Below are positions 21,796-51,096 of a stretch of 64,000 bases of DNA, piece by piece. The position numbers and the translations under genes are program-made. Where the stretch lies: assembly GCF_964340395.1 (NCBI RefSeq), contig NC_135553.1, positions 13,716,501-13,780,500 on the forward strand, read 5' to 3'. Numbering within the stretch: the first letter of the stretch is position 1; each line of letters opens with the position of its first letter. The notes under the pieces are model-generated. The model was not told the origin of the DNA. It made no database searches and was given only the letters and a program-made list of their open reading frames with translations. Source of the DNA: Glandiceps talaboti (taxonomy: Eukaryota > Hemichordata > Enteropneusta > Spengelidae).

Positions 21796-23828
21796 GTTAG
21801 TACATCCACCATTCATACTTTGCTAATAATGACTATCATTTAAGACCATTATTTCAGAGTTTCAAATTGAATTGGCGACACTATTATTATGTGTGACTGT
21901 CCCGTCACAGTGAGCAAACTCGATTGAATATGGCCGCTCATATGATATACATCTTTGTGCTGTAGACGTTTTTGAATTCATATATTTTTGTCCAAATTTT
22001 CAGCAGTTAGTATTGTCAAACCTTTCATCAAAGGATGGGTGCATTCATCTGCTTGAATGTGTGTTTTTTTATCTAAAAGTAGTCGCTCATGTTCGAGACA
22101 GGGGTGATCTACAAGGGCTGTAAAAATTTAGTTGATGGCAACAGTCTGAAAAACGAAAGCACAGAAGCCAAGAGTACTGAAAAACGAAAAGTCACAAATG
22201 AATGAAAATATTGACCCTGTTTATGTGGACAGCTCAGAATTTAAACTTTACCATGGGTTATTACAGAGATATTAATTATGTTCTTGTACATGTATATTTG
22301 CCATGTTTAATAGTATTGTTACAATAAAAATGGCGCAAGTTCACATGGCGGAAGTTCACCATTTGTAATTTTATAAACTTACAGATAGTTACGTAGTCGC
22401 TACTCAGCTCAGTCCCGCTATTCGCTAACTCAAAGGTCAAATGTTCACGTGTTTAATATTACCTCAAATAAGGAAGCATTAGGATTTTGGTTCGATATAC
22501 ACACTGGCCCGCTATCCCGAGTCTAGTAACTTTCTGTAAGGACCAGTAAAACTTACTAAAATGCCCATTGGCATTGCATGTATATCCTACATACGGGATA
22601 GTGACTTTTCAATATTAGGGAGCTCAGCATTCAAAATGGTGGCGATACGGATTCACGGTCACGGTAAGGTAAAATTCATTCGATTTTTAATTTGCTATTG
22701 TAACCAACTCTGATTGTCTATTCCGAGTATTCGCGATAAAATTATCAGTTTGGAAACGGGGTAGATTTTATATGAGTTCGTGCCATAACAGCTTATGTTG
22801 TGTAGTTTTCGAAAAGCACGCCCTGTGGGAAAGTCGCCCAACAGGCGATCTCGCATGATTTCGTATTTATGTACAGTGCGTAGTCTTTCTAAACAGTAAT
22901 TTTCAGATCAGTTGGTATCTAAACTACGTTTCTGAGTTATTTATTTGGTAGGTTATAAAGCTCCCTTTATAAAATCACTGTACAAATTGGACGTAAGCGT
23001 TCGTCCGGTCACGTTCAACTGAACTGACTATAGTGAAGCTCAATCATAACAATGGTTGCTGTCAAAATCGATGACGTGATCGTGTTTTCGGTGCGTCGAA
23101 TTTCAAATCACATTAGTTTGAGGGTCCAATACTTCTTTTATTTTGTGTCAGTGAGTTTATTCAGCAAGAACACAACGTGTTCTATGTTTTTGCTGTGATG
23201 ATCGTAATTTTTACCGGGTACAGCCTACATTGAAGCCATGTGGCACTGCTAACAGTAACAATAACACGATTCCGTTCTGTGTTGCGAGGTCGTGTTTTTG
23301 GGAACATTTCTAAATACACGAAACCAGTTATTGAATGTGTAGTGGATATTGATATTCAGTTTGAAAAAATCAAAATCCTGAACTTTATTTTACGATTGGT
23401 TTTGTCATTTCTTAGTAGTTATAGGGCCAACTGTATCACGTTTAACGTTTAATATGTCAACCCGGAAGTACATAGACATGAAAATAGACTACGTGTAATT
23501 AGTAACGAAATTTTACTCTAACTGCTGGTAACCTTCAGATGTATTTATTTTTATGTTGTGAATACATTCTAGTAAGCCCTAAGGATGACACTATAGAGAC
23601 TTGCTGTATGGGAAAGTAATTTTTTGTCCTTAAAAATGCAAGTCAGACTAATGTGTACCAGAATGTTATATTTAAGCTAGAAATAAGACCACATGATCAT
23701 ATCTTATTACCCTTCATCCCCACCCCACCCCCCAAAAAAAAAAAAAATTAAGACAAACTACATAAAGAAAGCCAAAATAGAAGCAGCCCCAAAACATAAA
23801 AAAGCAAACAAAATTACAGTAAGGAGCT

Positions 23829-24003
23829 GATGATGCACAAACAACTACAAAGAAATAGACAGTACAACTGGAACACAGGGTTTGAAATAAATATGGCGTT
23901 TGGAAAAGTGAATTAGAAGTAGAGCAAAAGCTAAGAGAGATGAAGAGCCAAAGTGAACAATTGAAAGCACTGAAAGACGGGACCACCAATTCTTTTGCAG
24001 GAC
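23829..24003 (+). pseudogene. Possible fossil coding fragment with coiled-coil character
   Basis: Two adjacent frames read like protein: MHKQLQRNRQYNWNTGFEI, then, after a frame change near 23,900, SELEVEQKLREMKSQSEQLK. The second part is a heptad-like, strongly charged helix. The frame shift and flanking stops suggest a degraded exon or retrocopy. I do not recognise the family. Confidence 0.2.
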
Positions 24004-24874
24004 TATGTTATCAATTTTACTAGTCCTGTGGGATAGTGTTTTTTTTACTCCAGTGTCAAACCCAGCATGATATGAATTCCTATTCTGATTTAATTTTGGG
24101 AATCTCTAAAAAGATGACAAATTAATTTCAAAAATTATATTCACATACACTGGCATGTGCTTCCTGTGAAACTTTGCTTTCAACGATCAACCTCATGGTA
24201 TGTTTTCATAAACATAATCATCTTTAAGACAATAAATTTCGAAAGGATTGACTAGTATCTGTTTTCCAGCAAGTTAATTTGGTGAAATACCAGCTTTATT
24301 CATAAAATTCAGTTCAGAAAAGCTTATTGAACTTTACTATTCTCAACAGATTGTTTCTGTCAATGATGTCATCATTGATGAATGAAATGTACTCAATTCT
24401 ACCAACATTTCTTGACAACATTTTTTGCTGAGGGTCAGACAAATAAATTAAAATATGATTAAAAGTAATTGTGTCTGCAGCAGAACTGAATTGCCCCAGA
24501 AATTACTGGCCAGCAAGATGAGGGCTTTGATTTCCCACAGTCCTGCTCTCTTTGAAAACCTGCTTATAGACAGCCACTGCTAAAATTTACACAAATGGTG
24601 TTATCAAGACCATTATGTTATAAAGTGTGATTAGGTGTGTAGCTATGGTGTGATGCCCAGTTTGGTCACAGATATGTATACGACTAATAATTGACCTACT
24701 AATAGGTAAATTCTTAAGTGGTAATCAGGTGCATGGGCATGATGTACTTGATGCAAAGGGAGTTTTAAATGGATGGCGTGTGTACTGGATGTTGAACTAA
24801 TTACTACACTAAATTTCTTTTATTGTCAATGAGACCTTTGTTGAAGCTCAAAGTTGCTATAGACCCATGCAGTA

Positions 24875-24941
24875 ACTTGATGGGCTTGTCAAAATTCATT
24901 ACAACTGCCAGTTGTAATGAATTTTGACAAGCCCATCAAGT
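24875..24941. repeat. Perfect 67-bp palindrome (33-nt arms, 1-nt centre)
   Basis: The arms are exact reverse complements around a single C at 24,908. The left arm starts ACTTGATGGGCTTGTC and the right arm ends with its complement. It could extrude as a cruciform or be transcribed as a hairpin. Confidence 0.9.
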
Positions 24942-25122
24942 GTGATTGACATTACCCCAGTAAGAGAATGATGTGTAGTTAAAAGTCACTATCTATGGAC
25001 AGTTGGTGTCATTTGTTGGGGATGCTTGTGACAAATATTTTGTTACCTGTATTACATCACAACCAAAGCAGTTTGTGAAGAAGACAGGCCACCTGTTTGA
25101 CTTCTCTCATTACATACATTAA

Positions 25123-26075
25123 TTAGTCCCCGTCAGATGAAGTCCGGACGGGGACTTATGGGTTGGGTTCCGTCCGTCTATCCATCCGTCCATCCGTCCG
25201 TCCGCCCGCAGCTGTTTCTTGGAGATGCTTGGACCAATTTTTATCAAACTAGGTACAGGGGCAACATACAAATGTACTATGGCATACATATGCACGTCAA
25301 TTTGTTTTATGATACAATCCAATATGGCCACCTAGCAGCCATTTTGTTTGCGAATTGTCCCTGTCCAAAGCCATAACAGACATGCGTGAACAGATCTCAT
25401 TCAAAGTTGCTATTAGGACAGTGTTTTATGACATACATGTGCATATTCATTGATGTCATGATACAATCCATTATAATATACCTAGTGATAATGCTGTGCC
25501 ATGATACGCTATAGCCCTCATGGCCAGGCAATATGTGTTCAATATGGCTGCCTGGCAGCCATTTTGTTAGCAAATTTCCATGTCCAAATCCATAACTCAG
25601 ACATGCTTGAATAGATCTCATTCAAAGTTGGTATTAGGACAGTGTTCTATGACTTACATGTGCATATTCATTTTTGTTGTGATACGATCCAATATGGCCG
25701 CCTAGCAGCCATTTTGTTTGCGAATTTTCAATGTCCAAAGCCATAACTCAGACATGCTTGAACAGATCTCGTTCAAAGTCGGTATTAGGAAAGTGTTCTA
25801 TGACATAGTGATACATTTGCATATTCATTGTTGTCATGATACAATCCAATATGGCTGTCTGCCAGCTATTTTGTTTTCGAATTTTCCATGTCCAAAGCCA
25901 TAACTCAGACTTGCTTGAATATATCTCATTCAAAGTTGGTATTAGCACAGTGTTCTATGACATACATGTGCATATCCATTTTCGTCGTGATACAATCCGA
26001 TATGGCTGCCTAGCATTTTTGTTGGCGCAGTTTTCATGTCCAAAGCCATAACCCAGACATGCTTGAACAGAGTAG
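25123..26075 (+). mobile_element. GTCCCCGTC tandem-repeat element, left block
   Basis: The block begins TTAGTCCCCGTC, and its first 30 bases form a hairpin (GTCCCCGTC paired with GACGGGGAC). A (CCGT/CCAT)n run at about 25,165-25,205 follows, then about five degenerate monomers of roughly 160 bp, each with AATATGGCNGCCTAGCAGCC and a CATAACTCAGACATGCTTGA core. A homologous block in reverse orientation ends at 30,338 with GGGGACTAA. The monomers give overlapping short open frames that are not genes. A non-autonomous Helentron-like or TIR element are both possible. Confidence 0.7.
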
Positions 26076-26754
26076 TGATATCAAAAACAACCATATGAGG
26101 CCAAACAACATTAACCAGGTTTGAAAATGACAACATAAACTGCCAGTTCCTTAAAACCCAATCATAGCTGGGTCTATGTCATTTTCAATGACTTGTTTGT
26201 ATTTTTGCCTTGAGTTGTTAGTGTGTAGGGAATAACGGTTTATTTGTAGAACAGTGACTCAGAGGTACTTCACCATGTAACTTTGTACCGATCAATCAGT
26301 GTGTGTGTGTGTGTGTGTGCGCGCGCTCTGTCAATGTATATCAGTTTTGAAGTGATCACTGGTAGAAGAGCTACTGAGACTATATATCTGCTGCTCTTAT
26401 TTTATGACTTCTTTTAACTATTACTACAGATGATACCTTTGTATAGAGAATTACACTGTGTGTGTGTTGTGTGTGTAAAAGTAAGACCATCTGCTCTACT
26501 TCCTTCATGTTGCTTAATTTTCTAAAGGGTACGTGTGTGTATCGATTTTCAGTATAGACTTCAGAAGAGAGACCAGCTGCCACACATACATGTAGATTTA
26601 TCCTTCTTTCAGTTGTTTAATAGCGTGCATAGAGAATAACAGGATAAGTGTAGAAGAAACCGTCTGCTGTTCTTATTTCATGTCTTCTGTTTGCTGTTGA
26701 GTTCTTACAGTTTGTAAATTTCTATAAAGAATTAGTTTGTATGTGTCACTTTGT

Positions 26755-26810
26755 TTGTATGTATGTATGTATGTATGTATGTATGTATGTATATGTATAT
26801 GTATATGTGT
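26755..26810. repeat. (TATG)n microsatellite
   Basis: A run of TATG units grading into TATATG. A nearby GT tract lies at about 26,300-26,330. Confidence 0.85.
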
Positions 26811-27553
26811 GCGTGTGTTTAGAAGGCCATCTATTCTTTTGATCTCATGTTTCTATTTTGCTTTTGAGTTTTAAGTGTTTGTATAGAATAAGTGTGCAAG
26901 TATACAAGAGAGACCATCTGCTGTACTTATTTCATAACATCTTATGTACTATTGATAAATACAGTTTATTTTCAGAATTGCAGTAATACCATCTATTATA
27001 ATTACTTCAAAAACAGCCTTGTGATCCCAATTTGGAATTTACATTTTAGTGAGTGGTTATTCAATGTCATCTCCCTGTATTCCTTTTGATAGGTCGGATA
27101 GCTCATCCTGTCATTTATTTGGATTTGGATGAAAGTTTGGCCACAGATACTTTACATAATTTATGTAATTCATTTCCTGGAGAAAATTGAAGCTGCAGTA
27201 GTATCATTAAGAGAATACTATCAATTTACAAATTACAGACTCTGAGGCTAAAGGTACACAAGGTAAGCATAATAATGGACCAGTGGGTTTTATGACATGT
27301 GCATTGTCTCTGGAACATAAATTCTTTTGTTTTACATGTACATTGTGTACATGCATGTAATGTGCCTTCAAGTGCAATGTTTTGAATATAGATCTTGTAT
27401 TAATTATATTTTACGTAAATTCCTTGCATAGTTGCACCAGTTAAGTCATCTTTATGGAAAACCTGCTGATGGTAGAAAGTTGTTGACTCATTCATTTTGT
27501 GTTATATTTTGTAGCCTTACTGTTCAAACTTTTTTACATCCTTTTGTCTATAG

Positions 27554-30500
27554 ATTTAGAAAAAATATGTCACGCAGTAGACGTGTTTCAAGACAGCCAG
27601 AGTATAAGAGGTATATAAGGGAAAAGAAGGATAAGCCCCATGTTGCAAAACAGTTCATCTGTGATTACAAAGGTGAGGAAATCTTAGTTGAAAACATAGA
27701 TTGAAGTTTCTTTTTGCACATGTGTACCTGCCTGGCAAATAATGTAGTCTTAGAACTTACTGTACAAATACTGTAGGTCAGAGTGCAGAGGGTTTTTTTC
27801 CACAAGCAAAGTTATAAAGTTTAGATAATGAAAGTAGCAAAAAGTGCAACATAACTGTTATATAATGTCATTCTCATACTTCATACTTCATACTTAGGCA
27901 CAAAAGTAACTCCTAATCATGTGTGTTGACACCTACTAACTACACATTCATGTATGTATACAACTATCCCCTTTCCTTTTTCCCATTTGTTATTGATAAG
28001 AAAAAATATATTCAATAGAAGAATATTGCTATAAAATGTACTTGTATCAAGACAAGTTTATTTGATGCAGTAAATATCCAGTACACGATGAAGATTGCAA
28101 ACTAAGAAATGATATCCTTTGACTTTTGTTAAGTGTCTTACGATGTATCCAACATAGCTTACAACTAGCTGGTGTTGAGTAAAAAAAATGCAGTCATAAA
28201 GAAAACCATGTGTACCTACTTAGTGTATAACACTTACTTTTTTTCTAGGACATGGAGTATTTGCAACAGAACCTATTTCAAGAGGAGACTTTGTCTTAGA
28301 ATATCGCGGAAAGCTTATAACAAGTTTTGAAGCAGATCATTTAGTGTCTGAATTTCATCAGAAAGAGTACTATATGTTTCATCTACGCCACAATGAGAAA
28401 AGTTTGTGGTAAGTGTTTTTTTAATGTTTTTGTCTTCACAGTCCTGTTTTGGTATAGAGATGAGATTGCAGGAAAAGCCATCTCATTGAAACTACTGCAG
28501 TTAAAAGATTGTACGAATATACCGTTCCACTTCCAACTATTCAACAAGACATTGTAAATGACATAGGTGTTTTGGGTGGATTGATAGTGATAGAGGTGTG
28601 GCAAGGGGAATTGAGTGGGGGTATGGCTGGCATTGTAGTTCTTATGTTTGTAGAGTTTTGTGTAGAGTGGTAGGCTGAATAGATAGAATATTATATAGCA
28701 TACAGATAGCATACATATTTTGTTGCGGACATTTTGTTACAATTTTGTCCATGTTCAAAGGCATTTACAAACATTCAGGAGTGGATCCTATTCAAAGTAG
28801 TATAAAGACAATGGTCAAAAACATAAATATGCATGTTTATATGCCATGGTAACAACATCAATCAAAAGCAGAGATGAATTGAACCACGCGAAAATAATGT
28901 ATATTGTGTGTGGCTTACCCTTATGTGCAATGGATTATTCCATGATGTACAATCAGCTGTTTTGGTCACGTGAGCAAGCTTCTTGCTAAGCAGCAGCCAT
29001 ATGGTTGCCTACTTGACCGAACAAGCCATCCCTACCTTCACCCAACCTTTCAAACTGTTAAAGTTCTCCTTTGTGTTGATCCCTCACTGTTACCTTAGTT
29101 TTCTGCCCACAAATGCATATTGATTGACTTAAAAGACAATGAACTCTAAAAATGACTTGTAGAAAAGAACAATATAGCTGACCATTAATTACAACAACGA
29201 CAAGTACTCGACTATCGAAGTGTGAGCTGACCACAGTGTATTGCTATCTCATGTATATCTGCATTACGGTAATGTGTGAATTTACATGGCAAACACATTG
29301 CTTGTAGAGTTTGGACTTGCTTTCTTCAACATCGTCAAAAAAGAACATCAGCCTCATATACCTTTCCATAAAGAGTTGACGTTGTGTCCGATCATTAGTT
29401 TTCTGTTCAATTTCACTCTGAAAACACGATTAGTTGTAGTTTGACATCATACATCATATGACAATCAAGACAAGCATTTTACAAAATGGCAGTTAATGAC
29501 GTCACAAACTATCGTGAGGTGTTGGACACTTAACAGTGTAAGGTATAACAAGTCTCATGTATCACAAGATTTGTCCTGACACAATGCATACTGTATGTAA
29601 ATGCAATTTTAGAATAGAATACATGTGAAGCCACAGTACAAACATGAAAAATATAAATTTTGGCAAAAAAAAAGCTTACAAAGTACATGGCAGCTCCATA
29701 AATTATGCACTTTATTTGCTGTCAGCTAGACTGATAGTACATGTATGTATGCAGTAGTGTGTTGTCCTTGTAGTGAGTTTAAGACAAACCGGTCGAGCCA
29801 TGTCTGAGAAGCGGCTCCAGACAGTCAAACAGTTAATCAGTTAAAATGGCCACTGTCGGTCATATTGGATTGTATCACAAAATAAATTGATGTGCATATG
29901 TATGCCATAGTCAGTTTTCCTTGTAATGAGTTTCGAAAAAATCGCTCCAATCATGTCTGAGAAACTCTGGAAAGCAAAACAAACAAATGACCAAATGGCC
30001 GTATGTCAGCCATATTGGAATGTATCACAAAACAAATTGATGTGCATATGTATGCCATAGTTTGAAACAAATTGGCACAGTCATGTCTGAGAAATGGCTC
30101 CGGACATACTCCAGACAGACAAATATAATTGTGACAAAATGGCAGCCTGTTGGACATATTTGATCATATCACAAAATTAATTAACATGCATATGCACACC
30201 ATACTTTGTTGTCATTGTACCAAGTTTGAGACAAATCAGTCCAGCCATGTCTGAGAAATGGGTGCGGGTGAACAAACGCACACACAAACGGAACCCAATC
30301 CACAAGTCCCCGTTCTAGACTTGTCCGATGGGGACTAATAATGATGCCCATTGGTGATCTCAGCTCCAGCAGGCATGCAGTCACATGTCAACCTTGGAAT
30401 CTCTCAATGAGCATTGGAAGGTTTGGTGACAATCATGAAAACAAAAATATTGCAAGTTATTGTTTTGCTTAAGATTCACCCTTAAAAAGTCATACTATTT

Positions 30501-33500
30501 TTCTACTTTTCCATGGCTATACAGTATACTTTTAACAAAATCATTCAAAAGCATAAACTTTGATGTTTTTCATAATTTGCAGTGTTGATGCTTCTGAAGA
30601 TGATGGATCTCTTGGACGATTTATAAATGATGACCATCATAACCCCAACTGCAAAGCAAAAAAAGTTCTTTTCAACTGCCAGCCTCACATATGTTTCTTT
30701 GCTCTTCGAAATATCGAAAAAGGTGGAGAAATAACATACAATTATGATGGAGATAACTTATATTGGCGTGAACAGGTAAAAGACACATTTATGAAATTTT
30801 TATCCCAGGTTTCCATTCCATTTCATTTATCATAATTATTGTTTGTGTGTGCAGAAATGACAGTTCATGTTGATTCAACAAGTGACAGGCATATTATGAA
30901 TTAATACTATGTTGTATTTGTGAGGCCATAACTGTTCATTATCAGACAACAAAGTGTCAGATTATTGTAAACAATTATATAGCAGGTGTCACAAAGATAT
31001 TCATTTTGTGTTGAAAAAAATAGAATAAACAAATAATAATACTTTTGATTGTATGTAATTATGATAGCAATATTTAATGTCCCAAATTTATACATGGGTT
31101 TTAGAGACATTCAGCAAGCAGAACTTGTGCAGTGTTTGACCTCATATTGCTGTCCTATAATAAGTCTCTAGGTGTAAATATTCATATGCATAGTAGGACA
31201 TGTGTATGATGAGGGGAGACATTACATGTAAACACAGAAAGTGAAAAGTAAATGCATTAAAAAAATTGCTATGTTTTGATCAACATAAATGGTTATTGAA
31301 TGTTGATTTATGTTGCTTAGGTCATATATGTTATACTGATACTGGCAAAATAAGACGTGTCAATATTAGGCAGCATCTAGTTCTTTCTATACAGTCTTAT
31401 GTATAACACTTGGTACTTCATTGCTTTTTTCAGGCTTCCTATCATTGCAGAAAATGTAACCCATTTGAAGGTGATCAGGTTAGTTATAGAAATAGAGCGT
31501 TTTGACTCAAAATCTGTACCACTCTCTATCCTTTCAATTTTTGATGAACCTGAGCATGGAAAGCTAAAAATGATTGCTGTAAGCCTGAACATTTAATTTT
31601 TTGTGCAAAATTTCAGTTAACTGTGTCATACATTGTAAGCATGTAAATTACATGTGTACATAACTATGCATACATGTAGATGAATTGTTACACCAACTCA
31701 AATAAAAGAATTATTTCTTGTCAGTGGATCTTCCCCAATGATAAAATGCACATTTTTGTAAATATTATTATTATCATTATTATTAGTAGTGGTATCATTA
31801 TAATTTGATATTTTCAAATGAAGCTGGTCATTGCTACTTTGTGCGAACAATGACTGAGTGTACATTTCTCTAAGAATGATTTTTTATCTCCCAAGCTTTG
31901 ATTGGAATTATTTGGATTGTGACTGTCATTATCTTTTCCTGTGTTCACTTCTAACCAAAACCATATATTCCTACTGGCACACTGATCATATGAATCTATT
32001 GAGGAGTACTTGATATAATCATTGTACTGATGTTATCTCAACAGATTGACAATCAAGACTCGGCACCATCAGCCATGTCATCACAACGCCAACAGGATTT
32101 GAACACAGCTCAAGCAGTCAAGTCATTTAAACAGAACACAGACTCAGTTCTAACAGCAATGTCATCTCAACTGAGAAAGAATTCAGACTCTGTTCAAACA
32201 CCTGAATCATCTCAACAGAATAGCAATCCAGACTCATCTACAACAGCCATGCCATACCAACAGAATTTGAACACAGCTCATCAACAGGCAGCCATGTCAT
32301 CTCAACAGGACTCAAACACAGCCCAAGCAGCCATCCCATCTCAACAGAATTTTAACACAGTTCCAACAACCATGTCATCTCAACAGAATTTGAACACAGC
32401 TCCAACAACCGTGTCATCTCAACAGAATTTGGACACTGTTCCAACAACCATGTCATCTCAACAGAATTTGGACACTGTTCCAACAACCATGTCATCTCAA
32501 CAGAATTTGAACACTGTTCCAACAGCTATATCATCTCAACAGAATTTGGACACTGTTCCAACAGCTATATCATCTCAACAGAATTTGGACACTGTTCCAA
32601 CAGCCATGTCATCTCAACAGAATTTGAACACTGTTACAACAGCCATATCATCTCAACAGAATTTGAACACTGTAGACTCAACAGTCACATCATCTCAACA
32701 GAGTCAAAATACAGACTTTGCTCAAGCAGCCATGCCATCTCAACAGAATTTGAATACAGACTCGGCTCACACAGCCATAACATCTCAACAGAGTTTGAAC
32801 ACAGTTCCAACAACCTTGTCATCTCAACAGAACTTGAACACAGTTCCAACAACCATGTCATACCAACAGATTATGAACACTGCTGAGACAGTCATGCCAT
32901 CTCAACAGAAAAAGACACCGGACTCAATTTTTACAGCAGCTGTATCATCTCAACAGAACAAAAATCCAGACTTATCAACAATAGCCATGTCATACAAACA
33001 AAATTTGAACATAACTCAGACGGTCATGTCATCTCAACAGGAATCAAACATAGCTCAATCAGCCACGTCATGTCAGCAGAATTTGAACACTGTTCCAGCA
33101 ACCATCCCATCTAAACAGAATTTAAATACATACTCAGCTCAAACGTCCATATCATCTCAAGAGAGGTTGAACTCAGACTCTGCTCTAACGCCCATATCAT
33201 CTCAACAGAATTGGAACATACCTGCAACAACCAATATATTGTCATCTCAACAGAATTTGATTTTGAACAGAGGCATAGCGCAAACAGCCATACCATCTCA
33301 ACAGAATTCTACATTGAACACAGATAGAACTGCAACAGTGATGTCATCTCAACAGAATTTGAACACAGCTCCAACAACCATGTCATCTCAACAGAATTTG
33401 GACACTGTTCCAACAACCATGTCATCTCAACAGAATTTGAACACTGTTCCAACAGCTATATCATCTCAACAGAATTTGAACACTGTTCCAACAGCCATAT

Positions 33501-36500
33501 CATCTCAACAGAATTTGGACACTGTTCCAACAGCTATATCATCTCAACAGAATTTGGACACTGTTCCAACAGCCATGTCATCTCAAAAGAATTTGAACAC
33601 TGTTCCAACAGCCATATCATCTCAACAGAATTTGAACACTGTAGACTCAACAGTCACATCATCTCAACAGAGTCAAAATACAGACTTTGCTCAAGCAGCC
33701 ATGCCATCTCAACAGAATTTGAATACAGACTCAGCTCACACAGCCATAACATCTCAACAGAGTTTGAACACAGTTCCAACAACCTTGTCATCTCAACAGA
33801 ACTTGAACACAGTTCCAACAACCATGTCATACCAACAGATTATGAACACTGCTGAGACAGTCATGCCATCTCAACAGAAAAAGACACCGGACTCAATTTT
33901 TACAGCAGCTGTATCATCTCAACAGAACAAAAATCCAGACTTATCAACAATAGCCATGTCATACAAACAAAATTTGAACATAACTCAGACAGTCATGTCA
34001 TCTCAACAGGAATCAAACATAGCTCAATCAGCCACGTCATGTCAGCAGAATTTGAACACTGTTCCAGCAACCATCCCATCTAAACAGAATTTAAATACAG
34101 ACTCAGCTCAAACGTCCATATCATCTCAAGAGAGGTTGAACTCAGACTCTGCTCTAACGCCCATATCATCTCAACAGAATTGGAACATACCTGCAACAAC
34201 CAATATATTGTCATCTCAACAGAATTTGATTTTGAACAGAGGCATAGCGCAAACAGCCATACCATCTCAACAGAATTCTACATTGAACACAGACAGAACT
34301 GCAACAGTGATGTCTTATCAACAGAAATTGAACACAGATCAGACTTTGTCCTCAAAACAGAATTCAATCTTGAACAGAGACTCAGCTCCTCCAACAGCCA
34401 TGTTTTCTGAACAGAATTTGAACACAGCTGCAACAGCCATGTCATATCAACAGAAGTTGAAGAGAGTTCTAACAGCCATTTCCTCTCAACAGACTGAGAA
34501 TCCAAACTCAACTATTACAGCAATGTCGTCTCCACAGAACAAGAATCCAGACTCGAATGCCATCTCATCTAAAAAAAACAAGAATCCAGACTCGACTCAA
34601 ACAGCCATATCATCTCAACAGAATTTGAACACAGTCTCAGCAGTAACAGCCAAGTCATCTCAACAGAGTGAGAATCCAGACTCTGCTTTATGTCAACATA
34701 AGAATCTCAGCTTGACCCAGTCAGGAATTCCGCTGGGGTGGAATAGGACTCCTTTCTCAACATTGCCAGCCAAACGCTCTCTGACATTCAGTAGATCTCA
34801 GAATGTTGCCATTGTTTCCCCCAGTAAGAAGCGTCATCGTAGTGAGGTATGTATGCTAGAACTAATTTGCTATATTGTGTTCATCATATTGATTTGTTCA
34901 AAACAGATATTTGGTCATGCTAACTCTGCAAAGTATATTTCTCAATACCCATTCTGACAGAATGAATACACACCTTACTTTTTCTTGAAGTAATAAGACT
35001 GTAAGCACTGATTAATTAATATGTTAACCTTATCAGTTGTCAAAATACTAGATTATAGTAATTGTTGATACAAAAAATGAGCAATTAAGTCACAATTTTG
35101 TTACATGCAACCAACTTTTTTTTTTAAAGCCAAAGGTATTCGATGTGGATACTGCATTGGATTCCAGTGATGAGGATGTTGTCATGGATTCTAGTAATGA
35201 GGATGTTGTCATGGATTCTTGTAATGAGGATTCTGAAAATCAAAGCGATCAGGTAAGTTGGGATCTACATTATAGCTACAGTGCAAATCAGGACAGTGTA
35301 GATTTTCAGTGTTCAACACAGACAGATTTCTTGACATAAAGGTGTAACAACATTATTGGTGTGTGAAATGGGGTGATAGCAGGCAAGTCAATTTCATATG
35401 GGTACATGTTGGCACAGTATTTTGATGTAATAAGTAGTCAGACATTACATGTTATTGTTTCTTTGATTGAAAAGGTAATCAAAAAATGATATTCATTCCA
35501 GAAGATGAAAACAATTCTGTTTTTTAAAAATCAGAGGGGTTGTAGATATACTTGAAAGTTTTGCCATGAAATAATCATTATGATTGGATATCAAATTGAT
35601 TCAATTAGATACCAGTATTTTATCACCGCACCTTAATACCTTTTCTAATGTATCTGTCAGTCAAGAAAACTGTCCGATTTGAACACTGAAATTCCATGCT
35701 GTTTTGACTTGCACTCGCTGTATTAGACTAAAGTCCAATTGAACAAGGCCATGGATAACTGTGATGTTACATGTACCCAAGATGACCTAAACTGATAGCC
35801 ATTTTGTTTCCATTGCACGTGATCAGTGATTGAAAAATCAGAAAAGATGTAAATTCTTGACAAAGCATCATAATTGTTTCAGGTTTCCCAAATCATACAT
35901 CTGTTGTATGTGATACAATTTTTATCGTATGAGTAGTTTATTAAAAGCTTTTTAATGCACCAGAGAGGACATCAAGTGAACAGTAGTGACAGATTCGCCA
36001 TATGATAAGTGTAGTGGAGGTATTTCTGTCAATTTATGTATGCCCTGACATTCACCAACTTGCAAAAACATAAAACAATCCATTACTGTAAGCTCCCATG
36101 TTTCTTATTTTGCATAGGGACCATACTCTTTCAATTCTTTGAAGAATACAGAAGACAGTGAAGCTGCAGAGTCCAGTTGTTCTGAGTATGTTCCCAGTGC
36201 TGACCCTGAAAGTGACAGTGATGATGATTCTGACTGTGATCACCTTAGTGTAGAATTGAATACAAGTGAGTGTCAAAATAGTGATACCAGAAGTCAACCA
36301 ATGGACAAACCAAGACCTAAGCCTGGTACTGATCATGACTTTAATCACAGTAGTGAAGAATTGAATGTGACTGAGGGCCAAAATAATGATGGCAGTTGCC
36401 AACCAGTGGACAAAAAAGAAGCTGAGCCTGGATTCATCTCAAGTCAAAGTGAAGTAGGTCAGTCTGAGACAGGAATCTCAGTAAAGTGTGTTTCACGTAA

Positions 36501-39500
36501 TGCACAAGGCAAAAGAATACAGAACAAAGTCAATTACTGCTACTACTGTGATAAAAAACAAACTCATATAGCTCGACATTTAAAGTTAATGCACAAAGAG
36601 GAGAAGGAAGTAGCTGCAGCTCTGGCTTATCCGAAATATTCAAAAGAACGGAAGAGATCGTTTAGTCTAATTGTGAATAAAGGGAACAAAGCACACAATA
36701 TGGAAGTATTAACGAAGAACTCTGGAACTATTGTAACAAGAAGGCAACCATCAAAACAACGCACAGCTAAGAGTTACCTGTTCTGTGTACACTGTGGAGG
36801 AATGTTTTTCAAGGACACACTGTGGCGTCACGTACAAACATGTTCGTTCAGGAAAAGCAGTAGTGATGCAATAAAAGGTCGTCAAATACAAGCGAGTGCA
36901 TGGCAACTAATGCCCATGCCAAAGAATGTTTCACATGAGTTTTGGAAAGTTCTGTCAGATATGAAGAAAGACGAAGTCACTTCTGCGATCATGGCTGACC
37001 CACTAATCATAAAGTTTGGAGAGAAGCTATTCAAGAAGCATGGACGGCGGCAGTTGGAAAGTGGTAAAGTTATATATGACACTGCAAAGAATGACTACAT
37101 CAAACAGCGATTGCGAGAATGTGGCCGATTGGTTGTAGCAGGAAGAAGTTTAGGTCTAAAGATGATGGAAGATTTCATTTCTCCAGAGAACTTTCCGACA
37201 GTAATAAAGACAGTGAGAGCTCTTGGTAGATTTAATGGAGTGAGCTATGAAGTCCCCTCATTGGCATTGAAGACTGGCTACAACCTTCTTTCCCTCTCTG
37301 AGATTGAAATGTACTGTGCAATAATGGAAAACTGTGATGAGAGAATTAAAAAGGTATGTAGAAGTTAATGTTTTGTTCAGGGCTTATCAATAATATTCAA
37401 AGCCAACTGCAAATAATGTAATTGTAACAGTTACTGTAAAATACTCTAACACAGTGAATGTAGTAACAAATTATCCTGTTGTCTCAAAACCAATTATATA
37501 GGTTCACTCACTTGGCACCTAGATAGATCTTGTTTAATACATCTTTGACAACAAGAGGGTAGCGTAACACTCTCTCTACAGTTGTCAGTGGTTTTCTGTT
37601 CAACATCAATCAACAGAGAAAGGTACATTAGGTACCCACTGTGGTTGTCACTTCTCCCACACACGGCTACATCAAACCCTGAGTGGGGTACTGTACGTAC
37701 TCCCATTATTTTTGTATGGCGGGTCCGATGCCCGAGTTGAAAACATCTACCAATGCAAACTCAAAAAAGTAGACACATTTTTAGGGATTTCTAGTCAAAA
37801 TCAAACCTATATTTTAAGGTTTCTCTATGTTGAGGGGGTTTTCAGGTGAAATGTCAACCAATTTTAGGAAAGTGGCCCATCTGGGTGGCACATATCCGTA
37901 CAACTTCCCAAGGGCTAACACCAACAATTGTTTGTTTGACAAGTTCATTATGAATATTTACTCATATTTTACAGGCTGAGCGTTTCCAGCAAATCTATAG
38001 ATCAGAATGGAATGCTGAAATTTCTGCTGCTGCTCTTACTACACTCAAAGAAGCAAGATGGAATAAAACTGCAGTGCTGCCATCTTCTGAAGATGTACAG
38101 AAAATCACAGACTACTTATCTAAAGAGATGACACACTATAAAGACAACCTTTCTGGGGCACATATAGATGGATTCACAAAGGAAATGTGGGGAAAGTTGT
38201 GTCAGGTGACATTGACTTCTGTTATCATATTTAACAGGAGACGGAGCGGAGAAGTGTCAAGACTTCTTCTTGAAACATTCATAAATAGAGATGATTCACC
38301 ACCAAATGCAGATGTCCTAGCTTCTCTAAGTACCACAGAGCAAGAACTATTGAAATACTTCACAAGAATCGTAACTAGAGGCAAAAAGGGCGGCAAGGTT
38401 CCAATTCTGCTATCACCCAACACATATGAGGTTATGGAATTGCTGGTGAAGACCCGACAAAGTGCTGGCTTAGAAGGGAATCCGTATTTTTTCGCTAATC
38501 CCAATGGAGCAAGAAGATTATACTACAGGGGCACCGATACTCTCAGAGCATGTGCAGTGCAGGCCAATGTGTCAAATCCTGAAAGCTTACAGTCCACACG
38601 TATGCGAAAGCATGTGGCTACAATGTGTCAGATCCTGAACTTGAAAAATAATGATTTAGCAAACCTTGCCCAATATATGGGGCATGACATCAGGGTACAC
38701 AGTAATTTTTATAGACAACAAGAAAGTGCCGTACAAGCTGCACAGATAAGTAAGGTGTTGCTGGCTATGGAAAGTGGAACTATTGCCAAATATAGAGGGA
38801 GAAGTCTGGAAGAAATAGATATAATTCCAGAAGGTTAGTACCCTACATTTGAGCTTTACCTACAGTCACAGTAGTAATCTGAAAATCATTCATCAAATAG
38901 ATTTTGCTGCCAACGGACACTTGAATGGACAAAAGCATAGCAATACAAAAATAAAACATCCCCTTCACTGATCTACCACAGGCAACTGACAACGTACGAA
39001 GTATTTCAACTGTGTGTCCGCTAGACGTTCTGTCTCACGAGCTTCTACAACACATGTATTACAGAGTACGCATTCATCCTTATAACATGTATGTAGGCGT
39101 CTACATGATACGCCATGTTCCAACGTATTCAGACGAAATGTATAGAGGTACCATCAAATTACCAGTACTTTAATTACCCTTTAAATATACTATTACAATC
39201 ACTGAATTTTTTTTACAGTTGAAATACTTTGTACGTTGTCAGTTGCCTGTGGTAGATGGGGGAGGGGGAAACAGAATAAAAACGTACGATGGGCATGGTT
39301 TGGAATGACGCACGCGAGGACGGGAAACAAAACCTTTTTTTGGCCTAAGTTTAAATTTTGAAAATAAGAGTATGCACCAAATTTTATGTAAAGAAGAAAT
39401 AAAATAGTATAATAAGTATTTCTCTTCATTTTCTTACATTGTACTAACCATCATACCTATCTGGGTGTCAATTGGTCTATTTAAGGCTTTATGATTTTGT

Positions 39501-41702
39501 CATTAAAGTTTAACCAAAGAAAATGATAATGACGACTGTATCAGAAAAAAGGAAAAAAATTTACTGCATCTAAATGTATGTGTGTACAGGCCCCTACCAG
39601 GGAACCCCCAAGCAGGTGCCCAAACCTGATGTATGTACACTTCACAATCACAATGTTTTATTTAAGGTCAGCTGCCTGGGAACACAGGCAAATTCATAGG
39701 GAACTGCGGTAACATTAGTGATGAAAAATTGAAGTGTCAATTGGACAAAATGACAGGGGAACCCCGGTAACATTTACCTACTTACCACCCTTAAATAAAA
39801 CACTGCGTGACTTCTCTCTCAATTTCTTTGTGTCATGATGAGGACCTCACTCAAGCTTGTTTGCTCCAACAGAAGTTACTGGACTCCTTTCTGATGAGGA
39901 AGACTCATGTGATAGTGATTGTGATGATTCAAAAAAAGAAGTGGACCCTAATCCAGATTGTGATGATTCAAAAAAAGAAGTGGACCCTAATCCAGGTAAG
40001 TTAATTGTCCACCTGTACTTTAAAAAAAATAATGCTCTCCTCTATGCTACATCGGAAAAGGACATGTTTAAAACAGTTGTTAAATGAAAACAGTAGCACA
40101 TCTAAAAATTGTCTGTGCTGCTGAGAAGTCAGAATTTTTAAGAACATACAAAGTGTCATCAGTCTTGTCATTAAATACTTGTATTTCTAAATATGTTTTT
40201 GTTTTTTAATGATATGAGATCCTTGTAAATGCCTACAAGTAATAATTGTTTCTTGAAGACACACTTGTACATTAATGACCCTTTGGGGTGGTGTGGTGCA
40301 TTTTTTGTCTTTTGTTGTGATTCAGTTTGTTTCAGGTTCTGGAGTATCAATCCAAGCTGTATAGAAATATTTACTATGAATCATTTGGGAAATCACAAGA
40401 TAAAATTTAACATATATATATGTGATAGCTATAATGTGTGGTATACAGCAAGAATAGTTGGTTGGCAGCTCTTTTCTTTTGAATTCAAAAATTCTTGTCT
40501 TTGCTAACAGTGATTTTGAGTTGCATAATTTGTGAACATACCATCTTTACTGCATAGGCTTGATATTTTACACAGTGACTATAATTTTTTCATTAGCCTC
40601 CAGTGAGGGAATACAAAGAATAAGTATACATAATCAGACAAGTCAACCAGAGATTAGAGAAAATTGTGGACCTAAGAAGGGGTCATCTACAGGACCTAAA
40701 AATAGATCAACCACAGGTAAGTGTAAAATAAGTGCTAAACTGTCATAGAATGACTGGTTGTGATGGCTTCTGTCAATATCTGTTCCCAAGGAGGAAATAA
40801 GTTAGTCACCCAGAATGAATCAGACTGTTTTCCTCCAGTCAAATGAAATTGCATTCATTTCAAGTTACTTGCAGCCCGTTCGGGAACAGGTTGCTGTTGC
40901 TGGTCAATGTGTGTTTTATAATACACTACAGTGTACTTTATTGTTCCGGTACTAATGTCAGATCAATCCCTAAATGTCTTGATAGACAGTATCAAATGCT
41001 AAGCAAGGATCTTCGAGCATAAAAACTGACAATGCATGAGAAGGGGTCTGATGGATTACTTGCATTGCAGGATATGGAGTACTGTCACACCCCACGCACA
41101 TGTGGACGTACATATGCTAACAAATTGTTAGTGTCACACTTTCTTTCAAGCAGTTGTGGGCTGACATAGTATTTGGATGCAACATGAGTATGAAAAGACT
41201 AGAGTTTTGTTGCTTAATTGCTCATTTGTATATTTATCAATGCGCGTAAATCCAGAAAGAATAGGAAAGTTTGCTTTGATGGAACTTGAAACAAACATTG
41301 ATCATACAGCAATATGATAGTTCCAAAAGTTATTAAGTGCTACAGTGTCTTGTAATTGCTCATTTACATCATTAACAATGTCAGCTGAATGTTCTTCCTT
41401 GATGTCAAGGATGACAGTGAAAGTATATTGCTGAAAATTGGTCTTTTTTCTTTGTACATGTAGTTGGGACAAAGTCTAAAGTTGTTGGACGAAGAGTGCC
41501 ATGGACAAGGGCTGAAGAAGAAGCCATTGACAGGAATTTCATGTCTCACATTCAAAAGAGGAAAGCTGTAACAAAGTCTGAAGCTGAAAAATGCCTATTG
41601 AAGGAGAAAGTGTTGTGCAACAGGGACTGGAAATTAATAAAATGGCATGTTCAAACCAGAGCAATAGCATATGAAAAAAAAGGCACCAAACAACAAATGT
41701 AA
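27554..41702 (+). CDS. SET methyltransferase - repeat - zinc finger - tyrosine recombinase - Myb-like fusion gene
   Basis: Eleven exons join in one frame: 27554-27672 (ATG at 27567), 28249-28408, 30583-30775, 31434-31478, 32045-34846, 35130-35252, 36118-37353, 37975-38833, 39873-39995, 40597-40716, 41464-41702 (TAA). All introns are GT-AG with matching phases, and the coding sum is 6,006 nt (2,001 aa). The domain order is basic N-terminus, KMT5A-like SET (about 36-153), CxxC exon (154-168), about 62 SSQQ-type repeats (169 to about 1,075), acidic repeats, C2H2 and C2HC motifs (1284-1302, 1366-1385), tyrosine-recombinase fold (about 1560-1830), acidic repeats, and a Myb/SANT-like tail (from about 1935). 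The parts suggest a chromatin or DNA-binding nuclear protein. Whether it methylates or recombines is unknown. One risk is that two neighbouring genes have been joined, though the continuous phases argue against that. Confidence 0.75.
27567..30775 (+). CDS. SET-domain exons 1-3 (KMT5A/SETD8-like)
   Basis: Exon 1 gives a basic start (MSRSRRVSRQPEYKRYIREK), as in the segment before the KMT5A SET domain. Exon 2 opens with GHGVFATEPISRGDF then LEYRGKLI, matching the KMT5A G-x-G-V and SRGDFVVEYHGDLI region. Exon 3 has VDASEDDGSLGRFINDD and NPNC (residues 90-112), the cofactor-binding NHSxxPNC region, and EITYNYDG (138-145) with the catalytic tyrosine pair. KMT5A is the histone H4 Lys20 monomethyltransferase, so lysine methylation is the family role. 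The usual NH of NHS is ND here (104-105), which may affect cofactor binding. Exon-intron junctions fall inside the SET core in phases 1, 2 and 0. Confidence 0.85.
28690..30338 (-). mobile_element. GTCCCCGTC tandem-repeat element, right block in inverted orientation
   Basis: The last 50 bases (about 30,289-30,338) are the reverse complement of the left block start, ending GGGGACTAA. Inside, monomers of roughly 160 bp run in reverse orientation at about 29,760-30,280 (with GTCTGAGAAATGG), and one degenerate monomer in forward orientation lies at about 28,690-28,860. TAA follows this terminus and TAA precedes the left one at 25,120-25,122. The block sits in intron 2 of the SET-recombinase gene. 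Confidence 0.65.
31434..31478 (+). CDS. 45-nt micro-exon 4 of the SET-recombinase gene (CxxC)
   Basis: The exon encodes ASYHCRKCNPFEGDQ, in phase 0 at both ends, with acceptor TTTTTTCAG and donor GTTAGT. A CxxC directly after a SET domain recalls a post-SET zinc ligand, but the canonical CxCxxxxC is absent. Being phase 0 on both sides, it could be skipped without a frame change. Confidence 0.55.
32045..34846 (+). CDS. Giant repeat exon 5 of the SET-recombinase gene (SSQQ repeats)
   Basis: This 2,802-nt exon is open throughout (934 codons) and consists of about 62 units with consensus NLNTVPTAMSSQQ (39 nt), plus longer variants with added NTDSA. It is rich in Ser, Gln, Asn and Thr, so it probably forms a disordered linker between the SET and recombinase parts. 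A 969-bp in-frame block is duplicated (32,371-33,339 and 33,340-34,308) with only a few differences. The exon's own splice acceptor, ATGTTATCTCAACAG, is a copy of the repeat consensus ATGTCATCTCAACAG. A repeat-free basic end (SPSKKRHRSE) looks like a nuclear localisation signal. Donor GTATGT. Confidence 0.8.
35130..35252 (+). CDS. Acidic repeat exon 6 of the SET-recombinase gene
   Basis: Forty-one codons, phase 0 at both ends, with a tandem acidic repeat DSSDEDVVM, DSSNEDVVM, DSCNED. The acceptor follows a long T tract and the donor is GTAAGT. Acidic Ser/Asp repeats of this kind are typical of casein-kinase-2-like sites in nuclear proteins. No fold is expected. Confidence 0.65.
36118..37353 (+). 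CDS. Zinc-finger exon 7 of the SET-recombinase gene
   Basis: There are 412 codons in phase 0. The first 110 are acidic and Ser-rich. Two metal-binding motifs follow: C1284-x2-C1287 with H1297 and H1302 (CYYCDKKQTHIARHLKLMH), and C1366-x2-C1369 with H1381 and C1385 (CVHCGGMFFKDTLWRHVQTC). Between them lies a conserved-looking block KYSKERKRSFSLIVNKGNKA. The rest (HEFWKVLSDMKKDEVTSAI, FGEKLFKKHG, VIKTVRALGRFNG) reads as the helical N-terminal core-binding part that precedes a tyrosine-recombinase catalytic domain. C2H2 or C2HC modules with this spacing are expected to bind DNA. Confidence 0.75.
37975..38833 (+). CDS. Tyrosine-recombinase catalytic exon 8 of the SET-recombinase gene
   Basis: Phase 0 start, phase 1 end, 286 codons. 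Box I Arg lies in FNRRRSGEVSRL (1643-1645), the beta-hairpin Lys in TRGKKGGKVPILLS (about 1692-1696), box II Arg in TRMRKHVAT (R1766), the GH in LAQYMGHD (H1792), and the nucleophile position Tyr in VHSNFYR (Y1801). Gly-His to Tyr spacing equals that of phage integrases (GHxxxxTxxxY). The first His of HxxR is Thr here. Tyrosine recombinases cut and rejoin DNA through a 3'-phosphotyrosine. Eukaryotic relatives include Crypton elements and their domesticated descendants. Retention of R-K-R-H-Y suggests real constraint, but activity is not shown. Confidence 0.8.
39873..40716 (+). CDS. Acidic and linker exons 9 and 10 of the SET-recombinase gene
   Basis: Exon 9 (39873-39995) and exon 10 (40597-40716) are both phase 1 on each side. 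Exon 9 holds a perfect 39-nt tandem duplication (39,917-39,955 and 39,956-39,994) encoding DCDDSKKEVDPNP twice. Exon 10 encodes a polar, Gly/Lys/Ser-rich linker (GPKKGSSTGPKNRSTTG). The equal phases mean either can be skipped without a shift. Confidence 0.6.
41464..41702 (+). CDS. C-terminal Myb/SANT-like exon 11 of the SET-recombinase gene
   Basis: Seventy-nine codons ending in TAA at 41,700-41,702. After a basic lead (SKVVGRRVPWTRAEEEAIDR) comes a three-helix-like pattern with spaced tryptophans (PWTRAEEEAI, NRDWKLIKWHV), similar to Myb/SANT or homeodomain-like DNA-binding folds. Related multi-copy fish and invertebrate proteins that pair such a tail with the recombinase-like domain are familiar to me only from memory. 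No clear poly(A) signal was located downstream. Confidence 0.65.
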
Positions 41703-42740
41703 TGTATGGTTTTGCTATTGATCAGAATTGTCTGGTTTATCTCCTATCTAGGCAGTGATCAAATTGTGACTTTTAACTGATTCGTGATTAGTCAACCCTC
41801 ATGTGATAACCAATATTGCACATAGCTCACAGTAGATGACAGTGACAGTGAGGTATGTCTAATTATTTAATGCTTCACATGACCTTGTTTGTTCATGTAA
41901 AATAACACTGTCAAGTAACTATGTAGGTTAAACTGTGTGGTATACTATAAGCCATTTTCTACTGAAATTTGAAATTTTCATTCTCCAACACAACAACTTT
42001 TAAAAGCTGTACCTGAAGCATTCATCCAGTCTAACTAAGGTATTCACCAGCAGACTGAAGGAATTGACATAAACAAACAGCAGGTGTTAACATGTTAGAA
42101 ACACCACCACTCACTGGCTTAGTGAGTGAGTCCCATGTACATGTATGTGAAATGGTCCCCATCTCTGTTCAAAGTAGGCCTGTAAGCCCGTGGTTTCACA
42201 GTCAGAAGTGGTCACCAGATTGATATACTATGTATGTCCACAGTAAATTTGACATATATGTCTAGACACTTCGGATGTACTAGTAATGTGCTTGGCAATC
42301 TGTACGTGTTCTAAAAACCTCACTTTCAGTGATCTTTCCATCTCCCCGATTCAGTCTTGATCACACTGACTATCACTACCGCCCCCACATTTAATGCGAT
42401 ATGTTGGACCCTTCAGATCCTTTTTGTCTGTCTTGTCCTTTCGTTTTACTAACAATTGCTTGCATGATCATCTAAACAAAGATGGGAGCCATTTCAGTCT
42501 TTCCCATGCATCGGACCACTGTCACAGTGTTAATATCACTCACTTAACCCAGTGAGTGGTTATGTTTCTAAACATGGTAAGTAACACCTTTTGTTCTTAG
42601 CTTAGCTAATTCATGTCAATTTTTTTCAGTCTGCTGATGAAGTTGATTAGTTAGAGGATGAAAGCTTCAGGTGTAGCTTTCAAAAGTTGTGTTTGAGATT
42701 GAAAAGTTCAATCCCTGCTGGAGGAAGTCTTGGATAATGT
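41703..42740. other. Spacer after the SET-recombinase gene
   Basis: This holds the 3' untranslated region and flank. No further gene is seen. Confidence 0.5.
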
Positions 42741-42744
42741 AAAT

Positions 42745-42960
42745 GACACATATATTGGGTTCTGTCCATCTGTTCCTGCATGTGAGCATCTGAAGTCATA
42801 TTTTTTTGACAAGACTGAGTTTATTTCTGGCAAACTTGGCACGAGTATAACATACATGCTTGTTTATTTCTTTTGTGACACATGTTCTAATATGGCTGCT
42901 CGGTGGCCATTTTGTTTGTGCTTTTCATGCCCTACATCATACTATAGTGCACAATGTGTG
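42745..42960 (+). repeat. Isolated monomer of the GTCCCCGTC repeat family
   Basis: It resembles the monomers at 25.2-26.1 kb (GGTTCTGTCCATCTGT, then AATATGGCTGCTCGGTGGCC and CATTTTGTTTG) but without the GTCCCC terminus. Confidence 0.55.
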
Positions 42961-43240
42961 GAAATTAAGTATTCTTATGTAGAGTGCATTCAGTAGCATC
43001 ATTGTCTGATATAATTTAAGTTATAATATACCTAGTGATAATGCTGTGCCATGATTCGCTAGAATCAGTCACATGATAGGAAAATAGAATGACTATTTCC
43101 CTAGGGAAATAGTTCCATCAACTATTACATGGTCATGTGACCACCGCACATTCACAGCAGGTCAAAATGGCAGCTTCGAACGATGTCGTCTGCCAACCTC
43201 AAGAAAAGAGGGCAAGATTTTCATGAGGTATATTATAAAA

Positions 43241-43428
43241 CACATATTGCCTGGCCTATATTTGGGCTATAGCACCTGTTTATTACCCCTTCGTGACTGT
43301 GAGTTACCAGAATTACATGCTATTTCCCTTGGCTTCGGCCTCGGGGAAATAGCATGTGATTCTGGTAACTCACAGTCCCTCAGGTGTAATAAACGAGTGC
43401 TATAGCCCACATGGCCAGGCAATATGTG
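43241..43428. repeat. 188-bp foldback palindrome with arms of about 87 nt
   Basis: The left arm starts CACATATTGCCTGGCC and the right arm ends GGCCAGGCAATATGTG. The arms pair over most of their length, with a loop around TTGGCTTCGGCCTC. Sequence just outside (CCTAGTGATAATGCTGTGCC at 43,031) also occurs inside the repeat block at about 25,471, there without the palindrome, which suggests a MITE-like insertion. Confidence 0.75.
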
Positions 43429-43989
43429 TTCACTATAATGAGCTATTTTGTGTGGAGAATATTCATATTTTGAGAGCTGTTAACTCCAAAACTTTGATGC
43501 TATTAAAGCATGTAGATACCTCATGCAAAGAAAGAGGTTAAATTGGCAAAGAAAATAATAAAATCCAGAAAAGTGCTTGTAAGTCTTTGCCTGCTTCAAA
43601 ATAGCGATCATCTTGGTTGCATAAACTTTGTTGGGGTTGGGATGTCTTTAGGTCTTGATTCCTATAACTAAATATCAAAATACAGAAAGTCATTTTACTC
43701 ATCTTTCCACCTGTGTAATAATTGTGTAAAGGTTGTGTAAAGGTGGTAAGTATGGACAGAATGTCATCTTTGGCCTTTTTTGCCTCCAGTCAAATCTTCC
43801 CTAGGTGATGTGGCAGGTCAAAGGTGATACTTTGTTTCATGCTACCCCTAGACAAAGGTGGTAGTAATCATGTGGGTCACAAGTGTGGTGATGGAAGGGT
43901 AAAGATGTGTAAATTATAAGACTTGCAGTGTAGTGTATGCATGATTTCTGCAGTGTAATTGGCATTAATATTACTATTGTTTTCATTTA

Positions 43990-44430
43990 ATGAAAATTGA
44001 TGCTTCTCTGGTAGTTGGTGAGTTAGGAGTTTGATAATTCTCTGCTGTATTTCATAAATTGGTGTTAACTTTGGAATCAGAGTTTGTTAAGAAGCTGGGG
44101 TTTTTTTTGTTGCTTCTCTCAGACTGGTAGTTGGTGAGTTAGGAGTTTGATAATTCTCTGTTGTACCTCATAAATAGGTGTTAACTTTGGAATCAGAGTT
44201 TTGTTAAGAAGCTGTTTTTATGGCCTTTCTCAGAGTGGTAGTTGCTGAGTTAGGAGTTTGACTGTTGTACTTCATAAATAGGTGTTAACTTTGGAATCAG
44301 AGTTTTGTTAAGAAGCTGTTTTTATGGCCTTTCTCAGAGTGGTAGTTGCTGAGTTAGGAGTTTGACTGTTGTACTTCATAAATAGGTGTTAACTTTGGAA
44401 TCAAAGTTTGTTAAGAAGCTGTTTTTTTTA
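43990..44430. repeat. Tandem repeat, about four units of 103-115 bp
   Basis: Units start GGTAGTTGGTGAGTTAGGAG at about 44,010, 44,126, 44,238 and 44,340. The last two are nearly identical. No coding content is seen. Confidence 0.85.
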
Positions 44431-45225
44431 AAGATAGCCTTTGGTCTGATAGGGCAGGACTGATTCAATGCAAAATATGACCTAGTGAAGTAACTATGTA
44501 TTAAGTTCCACCAACTGTGGTTGCCGACAATCATGTGTGCATATAAGTTTCTTGTTAACTAGATGCCACCAGGTGTGGTATAGTACTGACATTTTAAAAC
44601 AATGGCATTGCCATGGAAATTTACCACACAATTTAATTTTCATATGAGCATTTTCCAATCACAATTAGTCAATTTTCAATGTAATTGAAATGTCTGACCA
44701 TCAAGCCTTTGTGTTGTGTTACACTAGCAATAAATGCCATCGGAACTGGCTTTGATTCTAGGCTACATATTCTTGTAATTACTCACTTATCACACCAACT
44801 GATTTCAAAATCTCAACCTTTTGCTGACAAAGCAATATTAACGTGTGCTGTAAGGTTTTGATTTTTGGCGCCTGTTTTTGAAAGACAGCTAACATGAGCT
44901 AGAGCAACTAGGATAGTTCATCAAAACATTTTATTCAAAGTTGAAGGCTTTTTGACATTGAGTTTTCCAAGTTCATGTTTTTCCTCTTCATATGCAAGTT
45001 TGACTTGACAGTTTGAAGGAAATTGTTTTTCTGAGAAATGACTTTCTTACCCAATATCAAAATAACATGGGTTCTTAGCATGGCATATTTGTAACTTTGT
45101 TGGCTTTGATGTTTGTAAAAAAGAGTTTGTGCACTCTCCTCAGTCGCACGTTCTACCATGTTACAGTGTTACTTTGTAAATGATCCTACTTATTCAAAGT
45201 GTTGTTTTTCTTTTTCATAATTGTG

Positions 45226-51090: not shown

Positions 51091-51096
51091 ACACAC

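Follow-up and report, generated by a model that had tools for sequence, protein, structure and literature searches.

DNA transposons that encode a tyrosine recombinase (YR) are a known kind of mobile element, among which the Cryptons come closest to the locus described here. As set out in the accessible text of PMC3212892, Cryptons have been proposed to excise as circles by crossover between short direct repeats, and animal Cryptons carry neither a C-terminal domain nor terminal repeats; Crypton genes that became domesticated have lost the YR Tyr and the second Arg (PMC3212892). The element reported here lies in a 64-kb stretch of the Glandiceps talaboti genome (the window, by which we mean this whole stretch). 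As far as the available descriptions reach, it resembles Cryptons (CryptonA/CryptonI) in that a probable YR is encoded, no reverse transcriptase appears in its ORF lists, non-autonomous derivatives exist, short direct repeats occur at the ends and a circular intermediate is proposed. Within the same descriptions, it departs from Cryptons by a SET domain in the YR gene, a size of ~30 kb, a conserved C-terminal tail, an 11-bp terminal inverted repeat and a TG-tract target. It is referred to as Crypton-like rather than as a Crypton.

A second point of reference is primate SETMAR, in the accessible text a host gene that joins SET to a captured DDE transposase of the Mariner type (PMC8616336). The window gene likewise appears to link a SET methyltransferase domain to a DNA-transposition enzyme, but compared with SETMAR as it is described there, the partner is of the YR type, the putative fusion gene sits inside the multi-copy element itself, and no DDE transposase family was found among the Pfam matches of the window protein. 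To our knowledge, fusions of transposition enzymes with chromatin enzymes are rare, SETMAR being the well-known case that involves SET. The fungal Starships, in the accounts available, are also large DNA elements moved by a YR; unlike them, the window element shows no cargo genes and has SET instead, and Pfam searches up to E=1 yielded no DUF3435-type captain recombinase. Finally, among proteins of solved structure the SET part is closest to KMT5A/SETD8, from which it differs in having NDD for NHS, in being apparently joined to a recombinase and in being present in multiple copies on a mobile element.

Compared with known YR transposons, the new traits are a recombinase gene that includes a SET domain, the large size of the element, TG tracts as target and an inverted repeat at the termini. 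No description of an element combining SET/KMT5A with a Crypton or YR was found in a literature search that went mostly by titles and opening lines of abstracts and covered little of the subscription journals and repeat-database reports, so that an earlier description is possible.

A multi-copy element with shared ends

In genome searches, the SET match of exon 3 recurs at near-equal score twice on contig C11 and once on C8, and ~30 kb around these matches, exons and introns alike, are almost the same as in the window. Homology to the three other copies stops at the borders of a 29.7-kb element (Table 1), and the flanks differ between copies. The left-end 419 bp are found at 16 genome places (15 full-length and one 51-bp match beside a masked stretch), as are the right-end 421 bp in the 590-Mb genome, and left and right ends pair on the same strand to give 16 elements. 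Four of these are full copies, located on three contigs and 29.7-31.6 kb long; the other twelve are shorter (15.6-22.6 kb). Among the best candidates scored in the genome searches, no SET or YR match fell into the 12 shorter elements. A match to exon 11 or a remnant of it, on the other hand, is present in 16/16 elements, with three further, weaker matches elsewhere in the genome. In all full copies and in four shorter ones, the match has 96-100% identity and an open frame; in the remaining eight it has 81-83% identity and one internal stop. The one short element of the 12 that was read (on C14) retains 0.9 kb on the left, what remains of exon 11, the 1.08-kb array and the sequence of the right end, which marks it as an internally deleted derivative. 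As the 1.08-kb array is kept there, it may be needed in cis.

Three tandem arrays lie within the window element, at 25540-26071 (~157-bp units), 44042-44426 (104 bp) and 45233-49847 (1.08 kb). Apart from ORFs that overlap the exons of the gene model, the element contains no ORF longer than 117 aa, small ORFs being judged by length alone, and no reverse transcriptase by ORF lists. It has one evident gene, running from SET to tail and most likely producing a single protein.

The first-pass annotation had offered two readings of the locus: domestication of a Crypton-like gene, or a mobile element that brings a chromatin modifier of its own. The second is supported by the 16 elements having their ends in common, by the four near-identical copies, by their differing flanks and by the deletion derivative. 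We consider it likely that positions 21382-51099 of the window are a young, probably still mobile, Crypton-like YR DNA transposon with a chromatin-writer domain in its recombinase gene.

Gene model and coding state

When the gene model was rebuilt from the sequence, it gave 11 exons within 27567-41702 on the forward strand, with GT-AG at 10/10 internal junctions, compatible phases and a joined frame of 2,001 residues plus one terminal stop. The rebuild reproduced the eleven phase-matched exons annotated earlier, down to the identical residue number. From N- to C-terminus, the domain order is KMT5A-like SET, repeat linker, zinc-finger-like motifs, very diverged YR and conserved tail. The model is unlikely to be a product of chance, as the identical 11-exon frame is open in 4/4 full genomic copies.

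Table 1. Features of the window element and exons of its probable SET-YR gene
Feature	Position	Strand	Basis or remark
Whole mobile element	21382..51099	+	flanked by (GT)n ~21347-21381 and (TG)n 51100-51133
Left inner end TTTTATCAAATG	21382..21393	+	with flanking GTGTG, one inverted-repeat arm
Exon 1 (start codon)	27567..27672	+	rebuilt model, full-copy frames
Exon 2, SET first half	28249..28408	+	rebuilt model, Pfam, full-copy frames
Exon 3, SET second half (RFINDDHHNPNC, EITYNY)	30583..30775	+	rebuilt model, Pfam, structure and genome matches
Exon 4, short Cys-containing stretch beyond SET	31434..31478	+	rebuilt model
Exon 5, repeat linker, 39-nt units	32045..34846	+	rebuilt model, full-copy frames
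Exon 6, acidic linker	35130..35252	+	rebuilt model
Exon 7, two zinc-finger-like motifs and helical part preceding the putative YR catalytic domain	36118..37353	+	rebuilt model, sequence comparison
Exon 8, putative YR catalytic domain (NRRRSGE, GKKGG, STRMRKH, GHD, Y)	37975..38833	+	profile comparisons
Exon 9, linker	39873..39995	+	rebuilt model
Exon 10, linker	40597..40716	+	rebuilt model
Exon 11, conserved tail (W-x2-AEE..NR-W-x2-IK type) and stop codon	41464..41702	+	present in 16/16 elements
Non-coding tandem array, ~1.08-kb units, copy number variable	45233..49847	+	also in the derivative read (C14)
Right inner end AATAAAACACACGTA	51085..51099	+	other arm of the 11-bp inverted repeat

Across the four full copies, the whole frame is open over 2001, 2026, 2038 and 2015 aa. 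Exon 5, which is composed of 39-nt repeat units and bears out the long repeat linker annotated previously, differs in length from that of the window by 75, 111 and 45 nt, each a multiple of three, a regularity partly explained by the 39-nt repeat unit itself. The exons minus exon 5 (~3.3 kb) show 0-1 pairwise indels, the single one being 3 nt long in copy c8, compared with 6-25 pairwise indels in 9.1-9.6 kb of non-coding sequence. Substitutions between full copies amount to 0.06-0.80% in the exons minus exon 5 and 0.32-0.84% outside, and comparison of copy c8 with the window over exons 6-11 yields 9 synonymous and 13 nonsynonymous codon changes. By themselves, the copy-to-copy substitutions give no sign of purifying selection.

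Not all domain labels of the first-pass annotation held equally well. The zinc fingers are visible in exon 7 as two C/H motifs, and sequence comparison shows them again in two related families, but Pfam gives these zinc-finger-like motifs no score. The tail of exon 11 had been called Myb-like; as it matches no Pfam family at E up to 10, Myb/SANT included, that label is unproven.

The probable recombinase domain

For exon 8, the annotation had proposed a phage-integrase-type catalytic domain. In a single-sequence Pfam search, the region matches PF00589 at E=0.025, weaker than the curated cut-off, and among six related YR-like domains only that of the window reaches this family at E up to 1. A genome-wide profile search with PF00589 returned 143 places, the window gene not being among them. 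PDB searches with the YR region gave no YR match, only a chance lipid-transfer protein (E=0.83), and a search of PHROGs gave nothing beyond one chance-level match.

Profile-profile comparison was more informative. Aligned by hhalign, the six YR-like domains of the host genome (alignment A2) match seven known YRs, namely XerC, XerD, FimB, FimE, IntS, lambda Int and Cre (alignment A3), at E=3.4e-4 and a probability of 38%; the comparison scores 36.1, a value that none of 60 column shuffles (highest 20.7) and not the reversed alignment (13.5) attains. In register with the known YRs are the second Arg box, the Gly-His and the Tyr. The same register places a Thr of the window YR at the first His of the HxxR box, and the His of the Gly-His box is present. 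The first Arg (in NRRRxGE) lies outside the local hhalign alignment; this residue, R90, is identical in 6/6 genome domains. A catalytic Tyr is found in 5/6 of the YR-like domains, L040 having Phe. With regard to the R-H-R-Y set, both Arg and the Tyr are present in the window domain, and a Thr is aligned to the first His. The proposed assignment is thus upheld as to homology by the profile-profile comparison, even though single-sequence support is weak and Thr replaces the first His, and exon 8 can be read as a probable diverged YR whose activity is unproven.

Searches of viral_contigs with A2 and with A4 produced no confirmed relative. A hit of A4 in genome_contigs, covering 35 residues inside an apparently bacterial PAS/GGDEF-type protein (domain names assigned by eye), was taken as chance.

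The SET domain and its pairing with recombinases

Residues 36-143 of the window protein constitute a SET domain (PF00856, E=1.1e-22 in Pfam), to which KMT5A/SETD8 are the closest solved structures in a PDB search (E=1.8e-19). Alignment to KMT5A structures indicates that the SET core is retained, with N-D-D at the N-H-S position; full SET length and the C-terminal Y-x-Y motif are retained too. The NHS motif is typical of active SET domains and important for them. The KMT5A-like SET domain of the first-pass annotation is accordingly confirmed by overall similarity of the window copy, in Pfam and in structures, but not at this motif, where NDD replaces NHS.

SET-YR pairing is not confined to the window family. 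A search with exon 8 gave 35 YR matches in the genome, which merge into 29 loci, and at 16/29 of these a same-strand SET match lies no more than 25 kb upstream, against ~0.04 expected by chance; SET in any other arrangement near the YR was seen at 0/29 loci. The 16 SET-YR loci form three families, the window family with 4, family 2 with 9 and family 3 with 3 members, with YR identities to the window family of 42% for family 2 and 36-37% for family 3. Members of one family share a common origin, so the independent evidence consists of three families and not of 16 loci.

When the SET exon of family 2 is searched by itself, an H3K4 methyltransferase (E=3.4e-7) ranks slightly ahead of KMT5A (E=3.6e-6). 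NDD is found in the SET domain of family 2 as well; family 3 has NHS. The family 2 copy that was read (C9, L035:3533-5695) additionally contains protein kinase exons between the SET and YR exons on the same strand, with PF00069 at E=6.7e-12 in the first of three ORFs and at 0.0007 and 0.0017 in the others, suggesting that elements of family 2 may encode a pair of enzymes for signalling or chromatin modification. In family 3, the SET matches are divided over two stretches, as in the window gene, and an exon 11-like exon is also present in one copy, past an assembly gap.

The other 13/29 YR loci lack a SET match, and some of them are fragments. Two, at C6:14606380 and C8:19792097 (L039, L043), hold YR copies that are almost the same, have long open frames and show no nearby SET match; they may represent a related family that lacks SET or whose SET is too diverged to see. 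A different SET exon, whose 108-aa open frame reads NHG at the motif (L044:1242-1565), occurs at 14 places (34.9-35.8 bits), 0/14 of them within 25 kb of a YR match, and perhaps belongs to another SET-bearing mobile family.

Alternative explanations

A domesticated host gene or a segmental duplication would account for an open, intron-rich gene, for the length of the copies and for the finding of only 16 elements. Yet the ends are exact and shared, the flanks differ, TG tracts occur at all ends read, and the internally deleted copy has identical ends, which makes this explanation very improbable, and both the domesticated gene and the plain segmental duplication were rejected because of the shared ends, the TG flanks and the deletion derivative. 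For domestication in particular, which the first-pass annotation had raised, the window locus speaks to the contrary: the gene is multi-copy together with the surrounding 30 kb, and the Tyr and second Arg are kept. Within a mobile element, SET and YR could still belong to two unfused genes, a SET gene of exons 1-4 and a YR gene starting at or before exon 5. An in-frame ATG at 32030, just upstream of the exon 5 acceptor, and an AATAAA at 31701 in intron 4 would fit this arrangement, the hexamer being not rare in AT-rich DNA. Against it, the donor of exon 4 is in phase with the acceptor of exon 5 and the joined frame is open in 4/4 full copies, although the latter is limited evidence as the four copies are close relatives. 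We judge two genes to be unlikely and, given the element, a single SET-YR protein to be probable, with exon 4 presumably joined to exon 5 and transcription presumably running across that junction.

A separate issue is whether the SET part is an enzyme. It may instead be a degenerate or non-enzymatic passenger, i.e. a module that binds histones or acts as a scaffold but lacks methyltransferase activity, and NDD in place of the usual NHS in both the window copy and family 2 would agree with this. Family 3, however, has NHS, the Y-x-Y motif and the complete SET length are kept, and SET has been kept across three families whose YRs are 35-42% identical. A passenger role is a possibility of some weight, albeit less likely than not. 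Methyltransferase activity of the SET part, including a possible H4K20 monomethylation, and its role in the element are accordingly put forward here as suggestions drawn from sequence.

TG tracts and proposed movement

All of the ends read (10/10; 5/16 left and 5/16 right) abut a (TG)n tract, one tract being common to two elements. At the window, (TG)n at both ends amounts to short direct repeats that are indistinguishable from repeats of the target. The 64-kb window contains four tracts of at least 8 TG/CA units, two of which are the element junctions; the 10-kb flank stretch L031 contains six such tracts, showing that local TG/CA tract density varies. The left end of family 3 does not lie in a TG tract, and TG targeting is therefore not general.

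When the ends of the window element are joined, ATAAAACACAC..GTGTGTTTTAT forms an inverted repeat with two perfectly matching 11-bp arms on either side of a TG core, part of the repeat being TG repeat itself; with the TG parts fixed, an inverted repeat of this length was reached by a fraction of 0.0006 of 20,000 random pairs. YRs typically recognise 11-13 bp inverted repeats around a 6-8 bp segment, according to the accessible text of PMC3212892. The predicted junction is present in the genome, where the right end of the C8 copy runs through (TG)n directly into the left end of a second element. This head-to-tail pair (C8:11537791-11586718), with one (TG)n tract between its members, shows the predicted recombination junction as it occurs in nature, and its arrangement would be expected if one element had integrated at the TG junction of another.

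Movement of the Crypton-like transposon may be envisaged as follows. The YR would cross over inside the TG repeats of both ends and release a circle, whose junction would be the inverted repeat around the TG core, and the circle would then insert into a genomic TG tract. Copies without a YR would borrow the enzyme from others. The SET part, for which the indications are weaker, might be tethered to the DNA by the DNA-binding half of the protein, act on chromatin in cis and mark or open donor and target sites; if it is inactive, it might serve as a scaffold. It is with considerable reserve that we propose a YR transposon lineage with an active, DNA-tethered lysine methyltransferase that writes chromatin at donor and target sites to permit or time transposition, the target sites being TG tracts in the case of the window family. 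On this view, the host genome would harbour at least three families of such elements.

Concluding remarks

Many KMT5A-like gene models exist in fish and invertebrate annotations, which may serve as a lead. The locus calls for caution with such annotations, as multi-copy KMT5A-like gene models may be transposons. It also suggests a recombinase directed to TG repeats and, beyond this, that the element may bring its own tool for coping with packaged DNA. Whether an element alters chromatin in aid of its own movement can be tested directly here, since the open copies are almost the same, the target is defined and a crossover site is predicted.
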